64,000 nucleotides of DNA, taken from contig JAQENU010000007.1 in NCBI GenBank assembly GCA_027676805.1, positions 97,849 through 161,848 of the forward strand, written 5' to 3'. Below the pieces are notes generated by a model. The model made no database searches and was not told the DNA's origin. It was given only the letters and a program-made list of their open reading frames with translations. Shown here in pieces: positions 22,366-35,681 of the stretch (position 1 is the first letter of the stretch; the number at the start of each line of letters is the position of its first letter). This DNA comes from Coprobacillaceae bacterium UN01-12pH3A (lineage in GTDB: Bacteria; Bacillota_I; Bacilli_A; Erysipelotrichales; Coprobacillaceae). The translations under genes were made by a program, and so were the position numbers.

Positions 22366-22390
22366 GAAAAACAGATGCATTGCACCTGTT
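22366..22390 (-). terminator. Terminator of the polyamine operon
   Basis: The hairpin ACAGGT/ATCTGT (one G-T pair), read on the minus strand, is followed by TTTTTCT. It overlaps the end of nspC. Confidence 0.65.
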
Positions 22391-23519
22391 ACAATCTTGA
22401 CTTAAAATCATCATAGCCAAATTCTCTAATCAAAACATCTTCTCCATTTACTTTATGTAAATAAATACTTGGTAAATTTATCCCATTAAATGTATTATTT
22501 TTAACCATAGTATAGATTGCCATGTCTTCAAAAACGATACGCTGACCGATTTTCAACGGCTGATTAAAGGAATATTCCCCAATAACATCACTGGCTAAGC
22601 ATGTCGGTCCACCCAATAAATAACTATAAGGTAAGACTTCCGGTAAATCACTGCCAATGATACGCGGACGATAAGGCATCTCTAATACATCCGGCATATG
22701 ACATGCAGCTGAAGTATCTAAGATACAGTTAATCACTCCGTTGACATTAAAATCAAGGACTGATGAAACTAAATATCCTGCATCAAGAGCTACCGCTTCT
22801 CCGGGTTCCAAGTATACATCTAAACCATATTTTTCCTGCATAAATCGAATGCTTTTAATAAGTGTCTCAACATCATATCCTTCTTTTGTAATATGATGAC
22901 CACCGCCAAAATTAATCCATTTCATTTTCTTTAAATACGGCTCATAATGCTGATCAATAATTTGTAATGTACGCCACAAAGCATCTGAATTCTGTTCACA
23001 AAGGGAATGGAAATGCAGCCCTTCAATGCCTTGTAGCTGACCTTTTTGGAACTGTTCAAGCGTAATTCCTAAGCGTGAATGACTTGCACAGGGATCATAG
23101 ATCCCATGGTCTTGTTCTGAATATTCAGGGTTAATGCGTAATCCGCAGCTTATCTTTTTAGAAGCATGACCCACTTTATCCTTATACATTTCCCACTGAT
23201 TAAATGAATTAAAGACAATATGATCACAATAGTGTAAAATAGCATCAAAATCCTGTGGAATATACGCAGGTGAAAAGATATGTACCTGTTTTCCCATTTC
23301 TTCATACCCAAGACGTGCCTCATTGATTCCACTGGCTGTGATTCCGTCAAGATATTTTCCGATTAATGGGAATACACTGTACATCGAGAAGGCTTTTGCC
23401 GCTAATAATATATGGCATCCGGTGCGTTCTTTAATACTTGCAAGAATTTTAAGATTAGATATTAATTTATTTTCATCAATGATGTAAGATGGTGTCATGT
23501 ATTGATTAAAATCGATCAT
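22389..23519 (-). CDS. nspC: Carboxynorspermidine/carboxyspermidine decarboxylase
   Basis: This is a PLP enzyme of the alanine-racemase fold. It removes CO2 from carboxyspermidine or carboxynorspermidine to yield the triamine. The 376 aa are typical. The PLP lysine is Lys42 in ILLAAKAFS. Other features are GLRINPEYS, ASHSRLGIT, INFGGGHHI and YLEPGEAVALDAGYL. It is the last gene of the five-gene polyamine operon, starting 1 base after the dehydrogenase stop. Which homologue it makes depends on the diamine supplied. Confidence 0.93.
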   Translation of the reverse strand: MIDFNQYMTPSYIIDENKLISNLKILASIKERTGCHILLAAKAFSMYSVFPLIGKYLDGITASGINEARLGYEEMGKQVHIFSPAYIPQDFDAILHYCDHIVFNSFNQWEMYKDKVGHASKKISCGLRINPEYSEQDHGIYDPCASHSRLGITLEQFQKGQLQGIEGLHFHSLCEQNSDALWRTLQIIDQHYEPYLKKMKWINFGGGHHITKEGYDVETLIKSIRFMQEKYGLDVYLEPGEAVALDAGYLVSSVLDFNVNGVINCILDTSAACHMPDVLEMPYRPRIIGSDLPEVLPYSYLLGGPTCLASDVIGEYSFNQPLKIGQRIVFEDMAIYTMVKNNTFNGINLPSIYLHKVNGEDVLIREFGYDDFKSRL

Positions 23520-23520
23520 T

Positions 23521-24726
23521 TTAGTCTACCAATACCGGATTAAAAGATTCCTGCCATGGTAATCCACATACATTTAATTGTTCCATGAATGGATCAGGAT
23601 CGAATTCTTCAACATTAAACACTCCCGGCTTTTTCCATTTTTCAGTCAATACCATCATCGCCCCGATCATTGCCGGTACTCCTGTTGTATAGGAAACGGC
23701 CTGTGATCCCACCTCTTTATAGCAGGCTTGATGATCGCATACATTATATAAATAATAAGTTTTTTGTTTTCCATCTTTTACACCACTAAATATACATCCT
23801 ATATTGGTTTTACCTATTGTTCTTGGACCTAGGCTCGCTGGATCCGGCAGTACAGCTTTTAAAAACTGCAATGGCACAATTTGTTTTCCTTCAAATTCAA
23901 TAGGCTCAATTGAAGTCATGCCCACATTTTCCAAACACTTTAAATGTGTCAGATAACTCTCTCCAAAAGTCATAAAGAAACGAATTCTTTTAATTCCCGG
24001 AATATTAATTCCCAAAGATTCCAATTCTTCATGATGTAATAAATACATATCCTTTTTACCTACTTGTGCAAAATCATACTCTCTTTTAATTTCCATTGGC
24101 TTTGTTTCTACCCATTTGCCATCTTCCCAGTAGCTCCCGTTTGCGCTCACTTCACGAATATTAATTTCCGGGTTAAAGTTAGTTGCAAAAGGATATCCAT
24201 GATCTCCGCCATTACAGTCTAAAATATCAATATAATGAATTTCATCAAACTCGTGTTTTAAGGCATAAGCACTAAATACACCTGTCACACCGGGATCGAA
24301 TCCACATCCCAGCACTGCTGTTAATCCGGCCTCTTCAAACTTTTGTTTATATGCCCACTGCCATTTATACTCAAACTTTGCTGTATCTAACGGTTCATAA
24401 TTTGCAGTGTCTAAATAATCTACTTTGCATTCTAAACAGGCATCCATGATTGTTAAATCCTGATAAGGCAGCGCTACATTGATACAGATATCCGGTTTAA
24501 ATGTATTCATTAAATTTACCAATTCTTCCACTTTATCTGCATCCACCTGAGCAGTGTGAATAATTGTGTTTGTTTTATCTTTCAATGCTTCTTTATATGC
24601 ATCGCATTTTGATTTTGTACGGCTTGCAATCATAATCTCTCCAAACACATCACTATGCTGACAGCACTTATGAATCACTACCCCTGCAACGCCACCAGCG
24701 CCGATAATTAAAGCTTTTTTTGCCAT
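23521..24726 (-). CDS. Carboxyspermidine/carboxynorspermidine dehydrogenase (saccharopine dehydrogenase family)
   Basis: This enzyme uses NADPH to reduce the Schiff base formed between aspartate semialdehyde and a diamine, giving carboxyspermidine. The N-terminal Rossmann motif is KALIIGAGGVAGVV, followed by SRTKSKC, typical for NADP binding. The domain layout (401 aa) matches CANSDH/CASDH, and the neighbour nspC encodes the next step. It starts 11 bases after speE. Confidence 0.92.
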   Translation of the reverse strand: MAKKALIIGAGGVAGVVIHKCCQHSDVFGEIMIASRTKSKCDAYKEALKDKTNTIIHTAQVDADKVEELVNLMNTFKPDICINVALPYQDLTIMDACLECKVDYLDTANYEPLDTAKFEYKWQWAYKQKFEEAGLTAVLGCGFDPGVTGVFSAYALKHEFDEIHYIDILDCNGGDHGYPFATNFNPEINIREVSANGSYWEDGKWVETKPMEIKREYDFAQVGKKDMYLLHHEELESLGINIPGIKRIRFFMTFGESYLTHLKCLENVGMTSIEPIEFEGKQIVPLQFLKAVLPDPASLGPRTIGKTNIGCIFSGVKDGKQKTYYLYNVCDHQACYKEVGSQAVSYTTGVPAMIGAMMVLTEKWKKPGVFNVEEFDPDPFMEQLNVCGLPWQESFNPVLVD

Positions 24727-24737
24727 CTTTCTTCCTC

Positions 24738-25577
24738 CTAATGTTTCTCTAACATATCCAGTACATAGTTTGGCAATTTAAAACAGCCATCATGTAACTC
24801 TGTATTATAATATTTTGTTTTTAAGTTAAGTTTATTCCAAGATGATACATCTGTTTGAGGATCAAATCCTTTGCTCGCAAATCCAAACAGCCAATGACCG
24901 GATGGATAGCTGGGGATATGTGCCTGATAAACCTTTGCTACTTGAAATGTTGAAGCGATCTTACGATGCGCCCGCATCATTGCCAAAGCATCTTCACTGT
25001 AATAAGGACTTTCATGCTGATTAATTAATATACCATTATCTTTTAATGCCTTATAGCAGTTTCCGTAAAACTCTTTTGTAAACAAACCCTCACCCGGGCC
25101 GAAGGGGTCAGTAGAATCGACAATGATTAAGTCATATTCATTATTGACAGTTCTAACGAATTTTAATCCATCCTCATAAAAAATAGTCACTCTTGGATCA
25201 TCGAAGCTTTTGGCTATGGAAAAATATTGTCGGCAAACTTCCACCACTAACCGATCGATCTCTACGACATCAATTTTTTCAATTGAAGAATAACGAATCA
25301 ATTGATTTACTGTTCCCCCATCGCCAGCCCCAATAACAAGGACTTTCTTTATCTCCGGATTGACCGCCATCGGCACATGGGTAATCATCTCATGATAAAT
25401 AAATTCATCTTTTTCGGTCAGCATGACAACTCCATCCAATGTCAGAATTTTTCCAAATTCATAGGTTTTCAAGATATCAATTCGCTGAAATTCACTTTGT
25501 TTACTATAAAGATGTTCATCAACACGAATAGATAATTTAACGTCATCTGTATGTTTCTCGCTGTACCATAGTTCCAT
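24738..25577 (-). CDS. speE: Polyamine aminopropyltransferase (spermidine synthase)
   Basis: SpeE moves the aminopropyl group of decarboxylated SAM to a diamine. Clear motifs are VLVIGAGDGGTVNQL and DVVEID (dcSAM binding), then DSTDPFGPGEGLF, including the catalytic Asp. The length of 279 aa is normal. The ATG overlaps the stop of the decarboxylase gene by one base. It is unusual to find SpeE in the same operon as the carboxyspermidine route, as both make a spermidine-type product. Confidence 0.95.
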   Translation of the reverse strand: MELWYSEKHTDDVKLSIRVDEHLYSKQSEFQRIDILKTYEFGKILTLDGVVMLTEKDEFIYHEMITHVPMAVNPEIKKVLVIGAGDGGTVNQLIRYSSIEKIDVVEIDRLVVEVCRQYFSIAKSFDDPRVTIFYEDGLKFVRTVNNEYDLIIVDSTDPFGPGEGLFTKEFYGNCYKALKDNGILINQHESPYYSEDALAMMRAHRKIASTFQVAKVYQAHIPSYPSGHWLFGFASKGFDPQTDVSSWNKLNLKTKYYNTELHDGCFKLPNYVLDMLEKH

Positions 25578-27028
25578 TACTCCACCTCCACTATATTCAA
25601 ATAATTTAAATCCATATCCTCTGTCCCGGTTAATACACAGCCCTTTTCTTTAGCGAAATCTATATATTCTAAAATATCCTTGGTAATTTTTTCTCCCGGG
25701 GCTAGAATCGGAATTCCAGGGGGATAACACATTACAAATTCTGCACATACCATTCCTTCCGTTTTATCAATCTCCACAGCTTTCTTGTTTGCATAAAATG
25801 CAATTTGAGGAGAATAGATAACTTCCGGATCAATATATTCATGATCATAAAGACCACTTGGATCTTTTGAAGCAGTGCGGCTGATTTCGGCTAAAGCTGC
25901 GATCAGCCGCTCAATCTCGAAGGGACGATCTCCTACTGAAATAATAGCTAAAATATTCCCAATATCGCCAAATTCTATTTGTATATCAAAATCATCTCTT
26001 AACAGATCATATACTTCGATTCCGGCTAACCCCATTTGGCGTGTATGAATGGAAAGCTTCGTCACATCAAAATCATAAAGGTCATCGCTATTGCATAATT
26101 CTCGGCCAAAAGCATAAAGTCCTGGTATTTTATTGATTTCCTGTCGTGCATAGTCTGCCATGTCTACTACCTTTTTAAAAATTTCTTTTCCGTGAATTGC
26201 TAATTCACTTCTAGCAATATCCACTGAAGACATCAGCAAATAAGATCCTGAAGTTGTTTGTGTCAGGTTAATCACCTGTCTTACGTAGTCCGCATTCATG
26301 GCTTTGCCTAAAAGCAGCAATGAGCTTTGTGTCAGGCTTCCTCCGGTTTTATGTGTACTAACAGCTGCCATATCCGCTCCCGCTGCCATCGCATTGATAG
26401 GAAGATTTTCACCGAAATATAGATGTGTTCCGTGAGCCTCATCGGCTAAAACCTTCATTCCTGCTTGATGTCCTAAAGCAACAATCCTTTTTAAGTCTGA
26501 ACAAATTCCATAATAGGTCGGATTATTCACAAGAATCGCCTTAGCATCAGGATGTTTTTTAATTGCGGCTTCTAAATCAGCGATTTTCATCCCTAGCGAA
26601 ATTCCAATCTCTTTAGACATTCCCGGATTCACATAAACAGGGATTGCCCCGGTAATAATCAATGCGTTGATTGCACTGCGATGCACATTGCGAGGCATAA
26701 TAATTTTATCCCCACGCTTACAAACCGACATGATCATTGCCTGAACAGCACTGGACGTACCATTCACCATGAAGAAAGCATGAGCTGCACCAAAAGCCTC
26801 TGCCGCTAACTCCTCAGCTTCTTTAATGACACCGGTTGGATGACAGAGATTATCGAGCGGTTTCATTGAATTGACATCGACATCCAGACAGGCTTGTCCT
26901 AAAAACTCCGCTAAGCGCTTATTTCCTCTGCCCTGTTTATGCCCAGGTACATCGAATGAGACAATGCGATTACGTTTATATTCATTTAATGCTTCATAAA
27001 TAGGAGCACGGCTTTGATCTTTAATCAT
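25577..27028 (-). CDS. speA: Basic amino acid (arginine/lysine/ornithine) decarboxylase, short SpeA type
   Basis: This is a PLP-dependent decarboxylase of fold type I (Orn/Lys/Arg decarboxylase major domain). The PLP lysine is Lys227 in [12 protein letters not shown], with DEAHGTH just before it. The 483-aa length fits the short Gram-positive form (B. subtilis SpeA/YaaO). The substrate cannot be fixed from the sequence. No agmatinase or agmatine deiminase gene lies nearby, so ornithine or lysine should be considered as well as arginine. I use the ATG at 27028 (GGGAG upstream), which overlaps the speD stop by 8 bases. Confidence 0.9.
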
Positions 27029-27791
27029 ATATATTTCTCCCACTGTAAATTTCTATCATTTCTTTTCTTAAATTTTGTGTAATCTGCAATCGTTCCTCCG
27101 GAGTCAGTTCATAAGTATCTATTTTAAACAAATAGTTTTGTAAGATAATATCTTTGATCAGAAGTCTGGAATGGAAGATATTGGATTGGTAAACATTTAC
27201 ATCAACTGCATCATATTTTCTTTTTATCTTCTCATCAATATAATCCTGAATAGAGGTAATATCATGATCAATAAAGCATTTTTTGCCATTAAGATCACGA
27301 GTAAATCCACGTACTCGATAGTCAATAGTAATAATATCTGAATCAAAGCTTTGAATGAGATAATCCAATGTATCAAGGGGTGTAATCTCTCCGCATGTCG
27401 ATACATCAATATCTACTCTAAAAGTGGCAATGGAAGTTTCGGGATGATATTCAGGATACGTATGTACCGTGACATGAGATTTATCTAAATGCCCGACTAC
27501 ACTTTCCCCACTGCCGTTATTATTGATCTTAAATTCTTCAGAAATCATGAGGGTCACACTAGCTCCCTGAGGCTCGTAGTCCTGTTTGGAAATGCTCAAT
27601 ACTTTTGCCCCAATCATTTCTGTAACTTGACAAAGTATATTGGTCAATCTTTCAGAGTTATATTGTTCGTCAATGTATTTAATATAATCAAGCTGTTCCC
27701 GTCTGGTTTTGGCGTAGCATACATCATATATGTTAAAACTTAACGTCTTAGTCAGATTATTGAAGCCATATAATTTTAATTTTCCATCCAT
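27021..27791 (-). CDS. speD: S-adenosylmethionine decarboxylase proenzyme (long SpeD form)
   Basis: SpeD makes decarboxylated SAM for SpeE. It is a pyruvoyl enzyme that cleaves itself at the Ser in [13 protein letters not shown], which is intact. The sequence from [15 protein letters not shown] onward is 256 aa, like the Escherichia coli type (about 264). The reading frame stays open back to 28079, but GGAGG is ideally spaced from the ATG at 27791. The upstream part also contains a terminator and structured RNA, and its first possible codon lies at the predicted transcription start. I therefore treat that part as leader. It is the first gene of the operon. Confidence 0.93.
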
Positions 27792-28079
27792 AACGGTTCC
27801 TCCACTGTATAATATAAAAACGCAGGCAATGCCTGCGATTAAGATAGCTGAAAATAATAGTTTCACCATTTCATCTCTTGATCTAATCCAAGCATTAATA
27901 CTTAGTATAGTCACAAGTTTACACCTGTCTAAAATCGGCTTTTGACCCGGCTGTCCGTTGGCCTTTAACACTGTCGTGTGGTCAAAAATAAGAAATAACT
28001 TATTTCGTATGTTCTTATCGAGCGCAGTCATGCGTTCTCCAAAATTAGTGTGATGTATGAAATAGCTTCTTGTTATCAC
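27792..28079 (-). ncRNA. Structured leader RNA of the polyamine operon, candidate riboswitch or attenuator
   Basis: About 288 bases separate the predicted transcription start from the speD ATG. They fold into several separate elements. One is a GAG(AA)CGCA-TGAC-TGCGCTC hairpin (28039-28020). Next is a 7-bp hairpin AAATAAG/CTTATTT (28005-27986). An 8-bp stem TTTTGACC/GGTCAAAA (27987-27940) encloses ACAC-GACA-GTGT and a GGC/GCC hairpin. A 6-bp hairpin ACAGGT-GTAA-ACTTGT with a GNRA-type loop follows (27928-27913). A terminator lies just before the ribosome binding site. It does not match SAM-I, SAM-II, SMK, guanidine or preQ1 motifs as I remember them. Part of the first hairpin (CTGCG...GATAAG) could pair with the terminator 5' arm region (CTTAATCGCAG) as an antiterminator. 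Confidence 0.6.
27812..27837 (-). terminator. Terminator inside the speD leader
   Basis: The perfect stem CGCAGGC/GCCTGCG with a 3-base loop is followed by five T's on the minus strand. It lies about 10 bases before the speD ribosome binding site. In this position it would switch off the whole operon. Confidence 0.85.
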
Positions 28080-28085
28080 GAAACC

Positions 28086-28114
28086 AGTATATCTATTTTG
28101 AAATTTCTTGTCAA
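28086..28114 (-). promoter_or_regulatory. Promoter of the polyamine operon
   Basis: TTGACA (28114-28109) and TATACT (28091-28086) are separated by 17 bases on the minus strand, a near-consensus vegetative promoter. The start would fall near 28079. Confidence 0.85.
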
Positions 28115-28160
28115 TATATTTTTAAATATATTAAACAAATAGTTTCATATTATTAAACTT

Positions 28161-28170
28161 ATGCTATAAT
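28161..28170 (+). promoter_or_regulatory. Extended -10 promoter for the 28189 gene pair
   Basis: ATGCTATAAT contains a consensus TATAAT with an upstream TG. The -35 region is weak. It faces away from the polyamine promoter. Confidence 0.5.
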
Positions 28171-28188
28171 TTTAAAGAGGTGAAGCAT

Positions 28189-28623
28189 ATGCATGAAATA
28201 GATTCGTTTTCTTATCAATGTGGTATTATGGATTGTTTTAATGAGATGGTAAAGGCTGGTTTAAAGCCAATGGCTTTGGCGCATCCCTTTAAAACACGAC
28301 AGGAACGTGATATATATATTCCTTTCGTCAAACAAATAACAAAACAATATGGCAACTATTATTACTTAGACAATGATCCTTTGATCACAGATTTATTTGC
28401 AGCATCATTAAATCTATCTACATATAATATTATTTTTTATCGCGATGAATATATTATTGAAAAATACAAAGAGCTAAAAATAAAAAAGGAAAAAGCGATT
28501 GCGAATGATCTTTATCAGGAAGTTAGGGAAAGTATTGCTTATGAATTCGGACATTTGCTGGGTTATCCAGATTCGCATATCCAAAAATACATCAACACCA
28601 ATAACGAAAAGGAGGAATATTAA
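28189..28623 (+). CDS. Conserved hypothetical protein paired with a cupin
   Basis: The 144-aa soluble protein starts at the ATG at 28189 (GAGGTG upstream). An in-frame GTG at 28180 lies within the ribosome binding site. Segments such as MDCFNEMVKAGLKPMALAHPF and YNIIFYRDEYIIEKY resemble hypothetical proteins I recall from Clostridia and Erysipelotrichia, but no function is known. Its stop overlaps the ATG of the cupin gene, so both are probably made together. It is acidic and basic in alternating helices, with no membrane part. Confidence 0.7.
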   Translation: MHEIDSFSYQCGIMDCFNEMVKAGLKPMALAHPFKTRQERDIYIPFVKQITKQYGNYYYLDNDPLITDLFAASLNLSTYNIIFYRDEYIIEKYKELKIKKEKAIANDLYQEVRESIAYEFGHLLGYPDSHIQKYINTNNEKEEY

Positions 28624-29093
28624 TGGCAGAAATTATTATTACCAGTCAAAAAAAGCTCGTTGCTCATCATAAAGATGAACATGAGCCTTATGAATATTAT
28701 AAATATGAGGTAACCCCAAGAAAAGATTTTTCACAGGCATATATCTGTTTTTATGAAATACCACCACAAAAATATAATTACCCGATTCATTATCATGATT
28801 TTAATACCGAAGCTTTTTATATCATCAGCGGGGAAGGATTATTAATTACCGAAGATGGTACTTCTCCGATCAAAGCCGGAGATATCGTAGTTTGTCCTTC
28901 CGGTAAAGAAGGAGGACATCAGTTATTCAACAGTTCATCTTCTCAGAATCTTACCTATGTTGATTTTGACACAACACACTCTCCCGATGTTATACATTAT
29001 CCTCATTCTCAGAAAATCGGGATTATTCAACATAATGTTTCTAGCCAATTTTATAAAGAAGAAGATCAAGCTGATTATTACGAAGGTGAATAA
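28623..29093 (+). CDS. Cupin domain protein
   Basis: This single-domain beta-barrel protein has 156 aa. The first cupin motif is seen as PIHYHDFNTEAFYIISGEG, with the His-x-His and Glu ligands, and the second as GDIVVCPSG...GGHQLFN with the late His. It probably binds a metal, though the substrate is unknown. The start overlaps the previous stop (TAATG). Confidence 0.85.
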   Translation: MAEIIITSQKKLVAHHKDEHEPYEYYKYEVTPRKDFSQAYICFYEIPPQKYNYPIHYHDFNTEAFYIISGEGLLITEDGTSPIKAGDIVVCPSGKEGGHQLFNSSSSQNLTYVDFDTTHSPDVIHYPHSQKIGIIQHNVSSQFYKEEDQADYYEGE

Positions 29094-32462: not shown

Positions 32463-35400
32463 TTATTTGATTGATAAATGATATTCCTGTAATGATTTTA
32501 CTTCATGACTGCCATGAATTTTCATTTCCATGATACCTTCTAATGAAGCTTTTGCTGCAGCAATATTTGTTACATAAGGTATTCTCATTTTAATAGCATT
32601 TTTACGAATATAACTATCATCATCTGCACTTTGTTTTCCATGCGGAGTATTGATAATCATCGCTAATTCTCCATTTGTTAACGCATCCATAATATTTGGT
32701 CTGCCTTCATGGATCTTCTTGATTTTTTCAACCGGGATTCCATTTTTAGAGATTAGATCATAAGTATGTCCTGTAGCAACTAATGTAAATCCTGCATCAT
32801 AATATCCTTTTGCAAGATCAACTACTTGCGGTTTGTCTAAATCATTAACGCTGATCAGAATTTTCCCTTCAGTTGGCAAGATTGTCTTAGCCCCTTCTGC
32901 GGCTTTGTAGTAAGCTGCACCGTATGATCCGCCTAATCCTAATACCTCACCCGTTGATCTCATTTCTGGTCCTAAGATTGGGTCTACTTCCGGGAACATA
33001 TTGAATGGGAATACTGCCTGTTTTACACCGATATGTGGTATCTTTTTCTCTTTTAATTCTGGTACCGGAGAAACTCTGCCTGTTAATTCTCTAGTGATAA
33101 TGTCAGTAGCAATTCTTACCATGTTGATATTGCATACCTTAGATACTAACGGTACGGTTCTTGATGCTCTTGGATTTGCTTCTAACACATAAACTTTATC
33201 GTCTGCAATCGCATATTGCATGTTCATTAATCCACGAACATCCATTTCTTTTGCAATCTTCTTTGTATATTCTTTAATGGTTTCTAAATGACGCATTGGA
33301 ATATGTTTAGACGGCAAGATACACGCTGAATCCCCAGAATGAATTCCGGCTAATTCAATATGTTCCATAACTGCCGGAACAAATACGTTTTCTCCATCGC
33401 TGATAGCATCTGCTTCACATTCCATGGCATTGTTTAAGAAACGGTCAATCAATATCGGACGGTCAGGTGTAACCCCTACAGCCGCTTTCATATATTGAGT
33501 TAAGCTTTCATCATCATACACAACTTCCATTCCACGTCCGCCTAATACATAAGATGGTCTTACCATTAATGGATAATGAATTCTTTTCGCGATTTCCAAA
33601 GCTTCATCAACGTTTACTGCCATTCCTGATTCTGGCATTGGAATTTCAAGTTTTTCCATCATTGCATTAAATAAATCACGATCTTCTGCCATATCGATCG
33701 TTTCAGGAGTTGTTCCTAAAATATTAACCCCATTTTCTTTCAGCTGAGCTGCTAAATTAAGTGGTGTTTGTCCCCCAAACTGAGCAATAACTCCTACCGG
33801 TTTTTCATTGTCATGAATACTTAATACATCTTCTAATGTTAATGGTTCAAAATATAAACGATCTGATGTATCATAGTCGGTTGAAACTGTTTCTGGGTTA
33901 CAGTTAACAATAATTGTTTCAAATCCCAGTTTCTTTAAAGCTAATGTCGCATGAACACAGCAATAGTCAAATTCAATTCCCTGACCTATTCTGTTTGGTC
34001 CACCGCCTAAGATCATTACTTTTTGTTTTCCATGATGAATATGACTTTCATCTGCACTATTATATGTAGAATAATAATAAGAACTGTCTTTTGTTCCGCT
34101 TACATGAACCGGAAGCCATGCCTGCTTAATATCATTAGATAATCTTTCATTTCTGATTTCTTCTTCTTTAACATCTAAAATTTGGCTCAAATATTTATCT
34201 GAGAAACCATCCTGCTTTGCCTGTTTTAATACATCTACAGGTAAAGATTTTCCTTTATAAGCTTTGATTGCTTCTTCTTCCTCTACTAATTCTTTCATTT
34301 GTTCAATGAAATAATGCTTAATTTGAGTTAATTCAAATAATTCTTCAACAGTAGCACCTTTTCTTAAGGCTTCATACATAATAAATTGTCTTTCGCTTGT
34401 CGGAGTAGCTAACATCTGTAATAGTTCTTCTTTAGATAAGTCGTTGAAATCTTTTGCATAACCTAACCCATATCTTCCGATTTCTAATGAACGAATTGCT
34501 TTTTGGAAAGCTTCTTTGTATGTTTTACCAATACTCATTACTTCCCCAACAGCTTTCATTTGTGTTCCTAGCTTATCTTCTGCACCTTTGAATTTTTCAA
34601 AAGCCCATCTTGCAAACTTAATAACCACATATTCACCATCTGGCACATATTTATCTAAAGTCCCATATTTTCCACATGGAATATCTTCTAATGTTAAACC
34701 TGCTGCCAACATAGCAGAGATTAAAGCAATTGGGAAGCCTGTTGCTTTTGATGCCAATGCACTTGAACGTGAAGTTCTTGGATTAATTTCAATAACTACA
34801 ATACGATCAGTAACTGGATCATGTGCAAACTGAACATTTGTTCCCCCAATAACACCGATTGATTCAACGATTCTAAATGCTTGATCTTTTAAACGATCCT
34901 GTACTTCTTGAGAAATCGTCAGCATTGGTGCACTACAGAATGAATCTCCGGTATGAACTCCTAATGGATCGATATTTTCAATGAAACATACTGTAATCAT
35001 ATTATTGTTGGCATCTCTTACTACTTCTACCTCTAATTCTTCCCATCCTAAGATAGATTCTTCAATCAAACATTGGTGAACTAAGCTAGCCTGTAATCCA
35101 CGAGATACAACTGTTTTCAATTCTTCAACATTGTAAACGAGTCCGCCTCCGGCTCCCCCCATTGTATACGCAGGTCTAACAACAACCGGATACCCTAATG
35201 TTTCAGCAATGGCTAATGCTTCATCAACAGTATTAGCAACTTCGCTTCTTGCCATTTCAATATGTAATTCGTTCATCGCCTTTTTAAATTCCAAACGATC
35301 TTCGCCTCTTTCGATAGCATCAACTTGTACTCCTAATACTTGTACATTGTATTTTTCCAGTACACCTGCTTCATTTAATTCTGAACAGAGGTTCAACGCG

Positions 35401-35681
35401 GATTGTCCACCTAAGTTTGGCAGCAATGCATCGGGTCTTTCTTTTTCAATAATTTGGGTTACCCTTTCCAAATTTAAAGGCTCAATATACGTTACATCGG
35501 CAATCTCAGGATCTGTCATGATCGTTGCAGGATTTGAATTAACTAAAACGATCTTATAACCTAAGCTTCTTAAAGCTTTACAAGCTTGTGTACCTGAATA
35601 ATCAAACTCACAGGCCTGTCCAATAATAATCGGTCCTGAACCAATAACTAATACGGTATTAATGTCTTCTCTCTTTGGCAT
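32463..35681 (-). CDS. carB: Carbamoyl-phosphate synthase large subunit
   Basis: CarB (1072 aa) makes carbamoyl phosphate from bicarbonate, ammonia and two ATP for pyrimidine and arginine synthesis. Both ATP-grasp halves are present: VLVIGSGPIIIGQACEFDYSG near residue 10 and MILGGGPNRIGQGIEFDYCC near 560. An MGS-like allosteric domain is at the C-terminus. GGAGG precedes the ATG. No carA, encoding the glutaminase subunit, is adjacent. The leader upstream contains a short reading frame and a terminator. Confidence 0.97.
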   Translation of the reverse strand: MPKREDINTVLVIGSGPIIIGQACEFDYSGTQACKALRSLGYKIVLVNSNPATIMTDPEIADVTYIEPLNLERVTQIIEKERPDALLPNLGGQSALNLCSELNEAGVLEKYNVQVLGVQVDAIERGEDRLEFKKAMNELHIEMARSEVANTVDEALAIAETLGYPVVVRPAYTMGGAGGGLVYNVEELKTVVSRGLQASLVHQCLIEESILGWEELEVEVVRDANNNMITVCFIENIDPLGVHTGDSFCSAPMLTISQEVQDRLKDQAFRIVESIGVIGGTNVQFAHDPVTDRIVVIEINPRTSRSSALASKATGFPIALISAMLAAGLTLEDIPCGKYGTLDKYVPDGEYVVIKFARWAFEKFKGAEDKLGTQMKAVGEVMSIGKTYKEAFQKAIRSLEIGRYGLGYAKDFNDLSKEELLQMLATPTSERQFIMYEALRKGATVEELFELTQIKHYFIEQMKELVEEEEAIKAYKGKSLPVDVLKQAKQDGFSDKYLSQILDVKEEEIRNERLSNDIKQAWLPVHVSGTKDSSYYYSTYNSADESHIHHGKQKVMILGGGPNRIGQGIEFDYCCVHATLALKKLGFETIIVNCNPETVSTDYDTSDRLYFEPLTLEDVLSIHDNEKPVGVIAQFGGQTPLNLAAQLKENGVNILGTTPETIDMAEDRDLFNAMMEKLEIPMPESGMAVNVDEALEIAKRIHYPLMVRPSYVLGGRGMEVVYDDESLTQYMKAAVGVTPDRPILIDRFLNNAMECEADAISDGENVFVPAVMEHIELAGIHSGDSACILPSKHIPMRHLETIKEYTKKIAKEMDVRGLMNMQYAIADDKVYVLEANPRASRTVPLVSKVCNINMVRIATDIITRELTGRVSPVPELKEKKIPHIGVKQAVFPFNMFPEVDPILGPEMRSTGEVLGLGGSYGAAYYKAAEGAKTILPTEGKILISVNDLDKPQVVDLAKGYYDAGFTLVATGHTYDLISKNGIPVEKIKKIHEGRPNIMDALTNGELAMIINTPHGKQSADDDSYIRKNAIKMRIPYVTNIAAAKASLEGIMEMKIHGSHEVKSLQEYHLSIK

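Follow-up and report, generated by a model that had tools for sequence, protein, structure and literature searches.

The window, by which we mean the whole 64,000-nucleotide stretch of Coprobacillaceae bacterium UN01-12pH3A DNA that was analysed, carries a polyamine operon on its minus strand, the strand of all features below unless stated. Its first gene is speD, for an S-adenosylmethionine decarboxylase of the E. coli type (27021-27791; TIGR03331, 410.9 bits against a cutoff of 255.8), and the start at 27791 is supported by the relatives L176-L179 and by the protein P0002. There follow genes for an Orn/Lys/Arg decarboxylase (25577-27043; PF01276, 260.4 bits, cutoff 27, with the NCBIfam matches listed all below their cutoffs), for the polyamine aminopropyltransferase SpeE (24738-25577; NF002010, 381.2 bits, cutoff 260), for a carboxy(nor)spermidine dehydrogenase, CASDH (23521-24726; Pfam saccharopine dehydrogenase domains, and NF043000 at 421 bits, below its cutoff of 800) and for a PF00278 protein (22389-23519) which, from operon context and recall, we take to be an nspC-like carboxy(nor)spermidine decarboxylase; a DUF6054 gene lies downstream of the latter. 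The intergenic region that holds the operon promoter also precedes a divergent gene pair on the plus strand (28180-29093), encoding a 147-amino acid protein of unknown type and a 156-amino acid cupin. Elsewhere in the window, CarB (32463-35681) is of a type that, among 50 genomes searched, has one counterpart of 68-77% identity in each of ten, while the other CarB copies listed are at about 43-49%, pointing to two CarB lineages; it is at most 49% identical over full length (52% partial) to those of 80 genomes picked from the Lactococcus-class sample, whereas six of 50 genomes, mostly Clostridia-type and including the one with locus L085, have a CarB that is 75-77% identical to it. Taken alone, this one gene, which may have been transferred, would point to a probable Clostridia host and away from Erysipelotrichia or other near relatives of the Lactococcus class.

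Between promoter and speD lies a structured leader, the putative 5' UTR of the operon (27792-28079). A preliminary description of this DNA had proposed a near-consensus promoter, a leader of about 288 bases with five hairpin elements, and a terminator about 10 bases before the speD ribosome binding site, and all three were borne out. The promoter (TTGACA-17-TATACT, 28086-28114) makes 11 of 12 consensus matches, but the scanned stretch holds 7 promoter-like sites against 4.6 in shuffles, so the promoter scan alone is weak evidence. The leader folds with a minimum free energy (MFE) of -70.3 kcal/mol compared to -56.8 +/- 4.9 for shuffled sequences (z -2.78; 3 of 200 shuffles are as stable or more so), and its MFE fold has hairpins at 28034-28023, at about 28019-27987, in the conserved core, at 27905-27888 and at the terminator. 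The terminator (27821-27837; 7 pairs, 6 of them G-C, loop of 3, U-run TTTTT at 27820-27816) ends 12 nt upstream of the ribosome binding site GGAGG (27799-27803); it scores 12.8, below our "strong" threshold of 14, with none in its 3 shuffles, and the scan found no second terminator-like site in 27400-28300 (shuffle mean 0.4). The GNRA-type loop that had been described stood in part: the hairpin CAGGU-GUAA-ACUUG can be drawn at 27914-27927, but it is absent from the MFE fold, and it overlaps the conserved ACUUGUGA (27918-27911), in a region whose ACUUGUG is the antiterminator strand in relatives.

The conserved core and its reading frame

The conserved part of the leader is narrower than 27792-28079. 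Positions 27935-27984 match the Rfam family RF02440 (SpF59_sRNA, ldcC RNA) over model positions 1-54 of 54, with 53.1 bits against a gathering threshold of 37.2 and an E value of 1.1e-6 for the whole window, and this is the only Rfam 15 family, of whatever class, over its cutoff there. The earlier remark that no known class was recognised must thus be qualified: the 54-nt core was already catalogued, albeit only as a Streptococcus sRNA fragment. The name ldcC RNA agrees with the identity of the pneumococcal gene SP0916, which we take to be a lysine decarboxylase, and so the gene had been noticed by someone before. A SAM-I (S-box) aptamer was looked for and rejected, as the SAM families gave no match at gathering anywhere in the window, none with E ≤ 10 within 27400-28300, and none in the 13 relatives scanned. 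The raiA motif, a family presumably present in the Rfam copy that we scanned, was rejected likewise; 12 of those 13 relatives match RF02440 and nothing else, and the thirteenth (L101) has no match.

An alignment (A1) of 57 leaders, taken from 121 that share less than 82% identity and headed deliberately by ten hits that were weak or odd, gave a core of three helices, P1 (UGACC/GGGUCA), P2 and P3 (GGC/GCC), then a possible pseudoknot and a hairpin B. In the window the 5' strand of P1 is UUUUGACC (27980-27987), which pairs with GGUCAAAA (27947-27940), and the first P1 pair (A1 columns 61:131) is UA in 23 rows, GC in 18, CG in 10, UG in 3 and other in 3. P2 is the hairpin ACAC-GACA-GUGU (27968-27979), all four of its pairs being changed on both sides within A1. 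P3 (27949-27963) pairs GGC (27963-27961) with GCC (27951-27949) around a conserved loop with CGGACA; its closing pair is GC in 49 rows, AU in 2, GU in 1, other in 4 and a gap in 1, with the window row shifted by one column here, and in L244-L246 the helix reads GCC/GGC.

The A1 pairs are formed in 93.6% of cells compared to 82.5% after shuffling, with a covariation score of 0.328 against 0.131, and none of 500 shuffles reached either the pairing or the score, though such shuffles leave kinship in. Sliding the partners by 1-3 columns reduced the paired cells from 93.6% to 20-53%; this comparison keeps kinship but favours a structure read from the same sequences. A lack of covariation among homologous leaders had been named beforehand as grounds for giving up the proposal, and covariation was found. 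The P3 loop CGG (27957-27955) may further form a pseudoknot with the downstream CCG (27938-27936), which would span 27936-27957; 97.7% of its A1 cells pair, but as these columns barely vary covariation cannot decide on it. A different pairing, given by RNAalifold on 108 leaders, of GACC with the later GGUC of GGUCAAUAAG was set aside because 13-17 of the 108 rows break its inner pairs and because the next outer column varies between U, G and C, yet covaries when GACC pairs with GGGUC. The near-invariant GGUCAAUAAG element of relatives repeats the P1 3' strand GGUCA and could compete for GACC.

The whole leader is also open in frame with speD (ORF 27021-28079, no stop over 96 codons), an openness reached by 0.1% of shuffles when that frame alone is counted and by 0.3% when any frame is. 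The region could then be protein-coding, giving SpeD an N-terminal extension of 80 or 96 residues, and the RNA signals would be coincidence. Two proteins lend this some weight, namely P0001 (336 amino acids, from the same or a sister strain), which starts at ATG 28031 and carries the 80-residue extension, and P0121 (115 amino acids), which is similar to the leader frame at 63% over 57 residues; but P0121 loses this similarity after the core and ends without SpeD, and the 3 residues by which P0001 differs from the window are all in the extension, with none in the 256 of SpeD. P0002 (87%) and P0003 (82%) begin with the SpeD Met or with the residue that corresponds to it, and some other proteins, P0023 and P0025 among them, have N-termini that are long but unrelated. 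Of the 352-amino acid query, in which SpeD alone makes up 73%, more than 79% is covered by just one of 120 listed proteins, P0001. The preliminary description had also asked whether SpeD begins upstream in homologues, which the speD loci do not support: of 45, the window itself is the only one in which no stop interrupts this frame anywhere across the core, while at L044 it runs for 131 codons and reaches into the core, and a conserved in-frame extension of SpeD in relatives was rejected on these 45 loci and the 120 listed proteins. Neither Pfam nor NCBIfam gave a match to the leader frame, as against the RF02440 match to the RNA (E 1e-6, rounded). A coding leader is thus very improbable, and the P0001 start is probably overcalled. 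We take the leader as non-coding and its open frame, which stays odd, as partly a result of RNA conservation. Inside the leader, GGAG-N5-ATG lies at 28029-28040, its ATG at 28031 being in frame with speD.

Occurrence and gene context

A core-only pattern, which made no use of gene information, was scanned in one genome per species and gave at least 118 stretches; 78 of 80 core-pattern titles among the matches listed are, as we read them, Bacillota or unplaced MAGs. Hits in Rhodobacter and Pyxidicoccus (L049 and L067) were dropped as chance hits, as their genomes have no RF02440 match. RF02440 itself was looked for in samples of whole classes, which are even draws under stricter filters. The class of a Lactococcus had it in 31 of 398 genomes, that of a Lachnospiraceae MAG (Clostridia-type) in 41 of 391, with 40 of these 41 over the family cutoff, and that of Acidaminococcus in 11 of 120; each of these three counts includes a centre genome already known to be motif-positive. 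In the class of Rhodobacter it was found in none of 142 genomes. The order of a Clostridiales MAG (G006) gave 49 of 188 genomes, with no copy of the window's type among the 37 read of the 49 matching, and 14 control genomes gave one, Lactococcus lactis. Six relatives of the window's speD (L174-L179, 74-78%) come from genomes without an RF02440 match, and a scan of viral contigs for the core gave 14 hits, none of which had the motif flanks by eye.

The leader set comprised 206 sequences including the window, 199 of them with full flanks and 150 below 90% identity; L228, L230-L232 and L243 were dropped for lack of a single anchor, and loci L247-L284 are in no tally. Among the 150 non-redundant leaders (window included), 147 directly precede polyamine genes, the first downstream gene being a lysine or arginine decarboxylase (LDC/ADC) in 49, potA in 41, speD in 36, CASDH in 21 and another gene in 2, with one contig too short to tell. 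Downstream genes were named by similarity to the window proteins and to the Pot proteins of L018 and L088. PotB/PotC come next in 26 of the 41 potA loci, the other 15 having too little flank, and of three potA loci checked against NCBIfam the ATPases of L018 and L121 are over a polyamine-transporter cutoff; the L088 ATPase and the permeases and binding proteins of L018 and L088 have Pot-type models as their best matches, below cutoff. One Lactococcus genome has two copies, before a decarboxylase and before potA.

The two exceptions, L132 and L142, precede M28 and C39/C70-like peptidases respectively, and these 2 of the 150 leaders count against the polyamine reading. L089/L142 and L132 share a variant core (AAGGCCGGACGGACAGCC) with terminator-like hairpins before the peptidase-like genes (C39/C70-like; M28), and here there may possibly have been a change of signal.

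These positions bear on what the RNA does, for Rfam gives RF02440 the type "Gene; sRNA", and the pneumococcal papers name it as a small RNA, which would act in trans: F59 is reported as an 82-nt sRNA of S. pneumoniae (PMC3395615), and a lung phenotype is attached to it (PMC4387999; this 2015 review lists the phenotype, and no function, where it treats F59). However, 147 of 150 copies lie on the same strand as polyamine genes and just upstream of them, F59 itself is placed in the gap from SP0915 to SP0916 and runs the same way as SP0916 (PMC3395615), and terminators precede the genes, so the short transcript may be an attenuated leader. We regard a trans-acting sRNA as improbable and, with 147 of 150 copies in leader position, reject it as the main role; the same count speaks against the type of a stand-alone sRNA gene, and the sRNA label of RF02440 looks wrong.

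Predicted expression platform in relatives and in the window

Most relatives have about 200-250 conserved nt, and the gene start lies a median of 305-399 nt after the core, depending on gene class. A terminator-like hairpin precedes the gene in 143 of 147 leaders compared to 21-26 in three shuffle sets; strong hairpins were found in 123 leaders against 0-2 in shuffles, and in 127 of 144 leaders the terminator ends no more than 100 nt from the gene. A separate, permissive terminator scan includes some false hits (e.g. L141). In 109 of 139 leaders the best upstream partner of the terminator 5' arm is a strand ending in ACUUGUG, which starts 11-40 nt before the CAAUAA element. When arms were swapped within a gene class, pairing at ACUUGUG became weaker (z -12.4, 0 of 300 permutations; 134 of the 150 leaders, window excluded), with overlapping windows at z -3.6 and -10.0 and none of the other 16 windows beyond -1.7. 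The effect is an average: 51 of the 134 leaders have an arm that pairs better than 90% of foreign ones, and in the median leader 16% of foreign arms do better than its own.

By this comparison of sequences the terminator 5' arm coevolves with the ACUUGUG strand, the predicted conserved antiterminator of the relatives. In the consensus of the extended alignment (108 of 121 leaders) the same strand pairs with UUUAUAAGUU inside the aptamer domain, and the three pairings are mutually exclusive, as expected for a ligand-controlled attenuator. What is looked for in a riboswitch, a structured conserved domain in the 5' leaders of functionally related genes and an expression platform with mutually exclusive pairings, was found, the latter in relatives. 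The transcription-attenuation layout that had been suggested for the window is supported in that it recurs in relatives together with the conserved antiterminator. A speD clade (L085/L141, L280-L283) seemingly has no terminator and by eye holds its Shine-Dalgarno sequence in a CCUU...AAGG hairpin, possibly a translational platform of the same RNA.

The window copy is firmly a member of this RNA class, albeit a compact and divergent one: after GCCGA it keeps CAGGUGUAAACUUGUGA, but the UUAUUGA/UCAAUAA helix that full-length members have is missing. The arm of its terminator fits its own ACUUGUGA strand poorly, as 67% of foreign arms pair better there. An alternative strand, AAUGCUUGGAUUAG at 27883-27896, is predicted to pair with 27842-27828 at -14.1 kcal/mol, and in the MFE fold the hairpin CUAAGUA-UUAA-UGCUUGG (27888-27905) would sequester it. 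No foreign terminator arm of 134 pairs as well at 27896-27883, a site chosen as the best one, and the pairing energy is equalled or bettered in 115 of 2000 shuffled leaders, so that we put this strand forward only tentatively as the window's own antiterminator.

Proposed mechanism and comparison with known systems

We consider it likely that the leader attenuates transcription in cis and belongs to a large class of RNAs which controls polyamine synthesis and uptake genes in Bacillota, probably turning them OFF in response to a polyamine. When polyamine is abundant, most likely as spermidine, it would stabilise an aptamer-like domain (the three-helix core, the possible pseudoknot and further hairpins), which would keep the conserved 3' strand occupied, so that the terminator could form and transcription would stop before the first gene. 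When polyamine is scarce, the conserved 3' strand would be free to pair with the terminator 5' arm as an antiterminator and the operon would be read. The sequences themselves show that the core is conserved, that it goes with these genes, that terminators follow it and that, in relatives, the antiterminator coevolves; from this we infer which ligand acts, that the RNA binds it directly, that the switch is of the OFF type and which strand is the window's own antiterminator.

A polyamine end product is the likely signal, as genes for two routes of spermidine synthesis share one RNA with genes for import. The preliminary description had offered SAM, decarboxylated SAM or a polyamine as ligand; the gene contexts (147 of 150) favour the polyamine part of this guess, while SAM and decarboxylated SAM are less likely because 41 of 150 leaders precede potA. 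Repression is the likely direction, but some caution is due here, since potABCD is reported to respond to spermine and spermidine by induction in Streptococcus agalactiae and, by the account of the same paper, in S. suis, with potD of S. pneumoniae falling with spermidine (PMC8744998).

Alternatively, sensing might be done not by the RNA itself but by a protein or by a translating ribosome. Such a reading could draw on the attenuator before potABCD in two Pasteurellaceae, the account of which is compatible with a protein factor (PMC2965389), and on the start-like GGAG-N5-ATG at 28040-28029 in the window leader. It has to contend, however, with the many near-invariant nucleotides outside helices, over about 200-250 nt and in three Bacillota classes, which are typical of an aptamer; we regard it as rather unlikely and suggest, from this depth of conservation, that the RNA binds its ligand directly.

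The leader fairly likely represents a new, large and widespread natural riboswitch class for polyamine (spermidine) in Bacillota, coordinating synthesis with import, unrelated to the rare SAM-I variants below and catalogued only as a 54-nt Streptococcus sRNA fragment. Among the matches listed from the full-text literature, a scope that leaves out preprints and most subscription papers, the RNA was not described as a polyamine leader. Selective sensing of polyamines by RNA is a long-standing question, which this leader makes directly testable, since its switch can be read from the sequence and it stands before genes for synthesis as well as for import. In many Clostridia, Paenibacillus and Lactococcus relatives the RNA could account for how polyamine levels are kept steady, and, if the reading is true, it would correct both the Rfam entry and the pneumococcal "sRNA".

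The nearest catalogued RNA is RF02440, as the window core matches all 54 of its positions above gathering and pneumococcal F59 precedes SP0916; but the family is typed as a 54-nt sRNA, whereas most of the leaders described here are much longer, adding conserved helices, a terminator and an antiterminator, and they are far from confined to Streptococcus. The ABC-leader of potABCD in Pasteurellaceae is likewise described as a transcription attenuator before a polyamine importer (PMC2965389), but it belongs to two Gammaproteobacteria and is likened here by description and not by sequence. The speF motif and the odc1 (uORF) element of alphaproteobacteria are RNAs before polyamine decarboxylases too, though in another phylum. 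Most similar in function is the spermidine riboswitch reported in 2023 (Cell Rep; PMC10853860), a SAM-I variant before ldcC, speD, speE and speB with a terminator/antiterminator OFF switch, which is rare (13 aligned representatives) and whose authors, where they discuss earlier evidence for polyamine sensing by RNA, call it unconvincing. Our leader shares with it the kinds of gene and the proposed OFF terminator/antiterminator switch but is a different RNA from that SAM-I aptamer variant, and, at 8-10% of sampled genomes in three Bacillota classes, it is far commoner.
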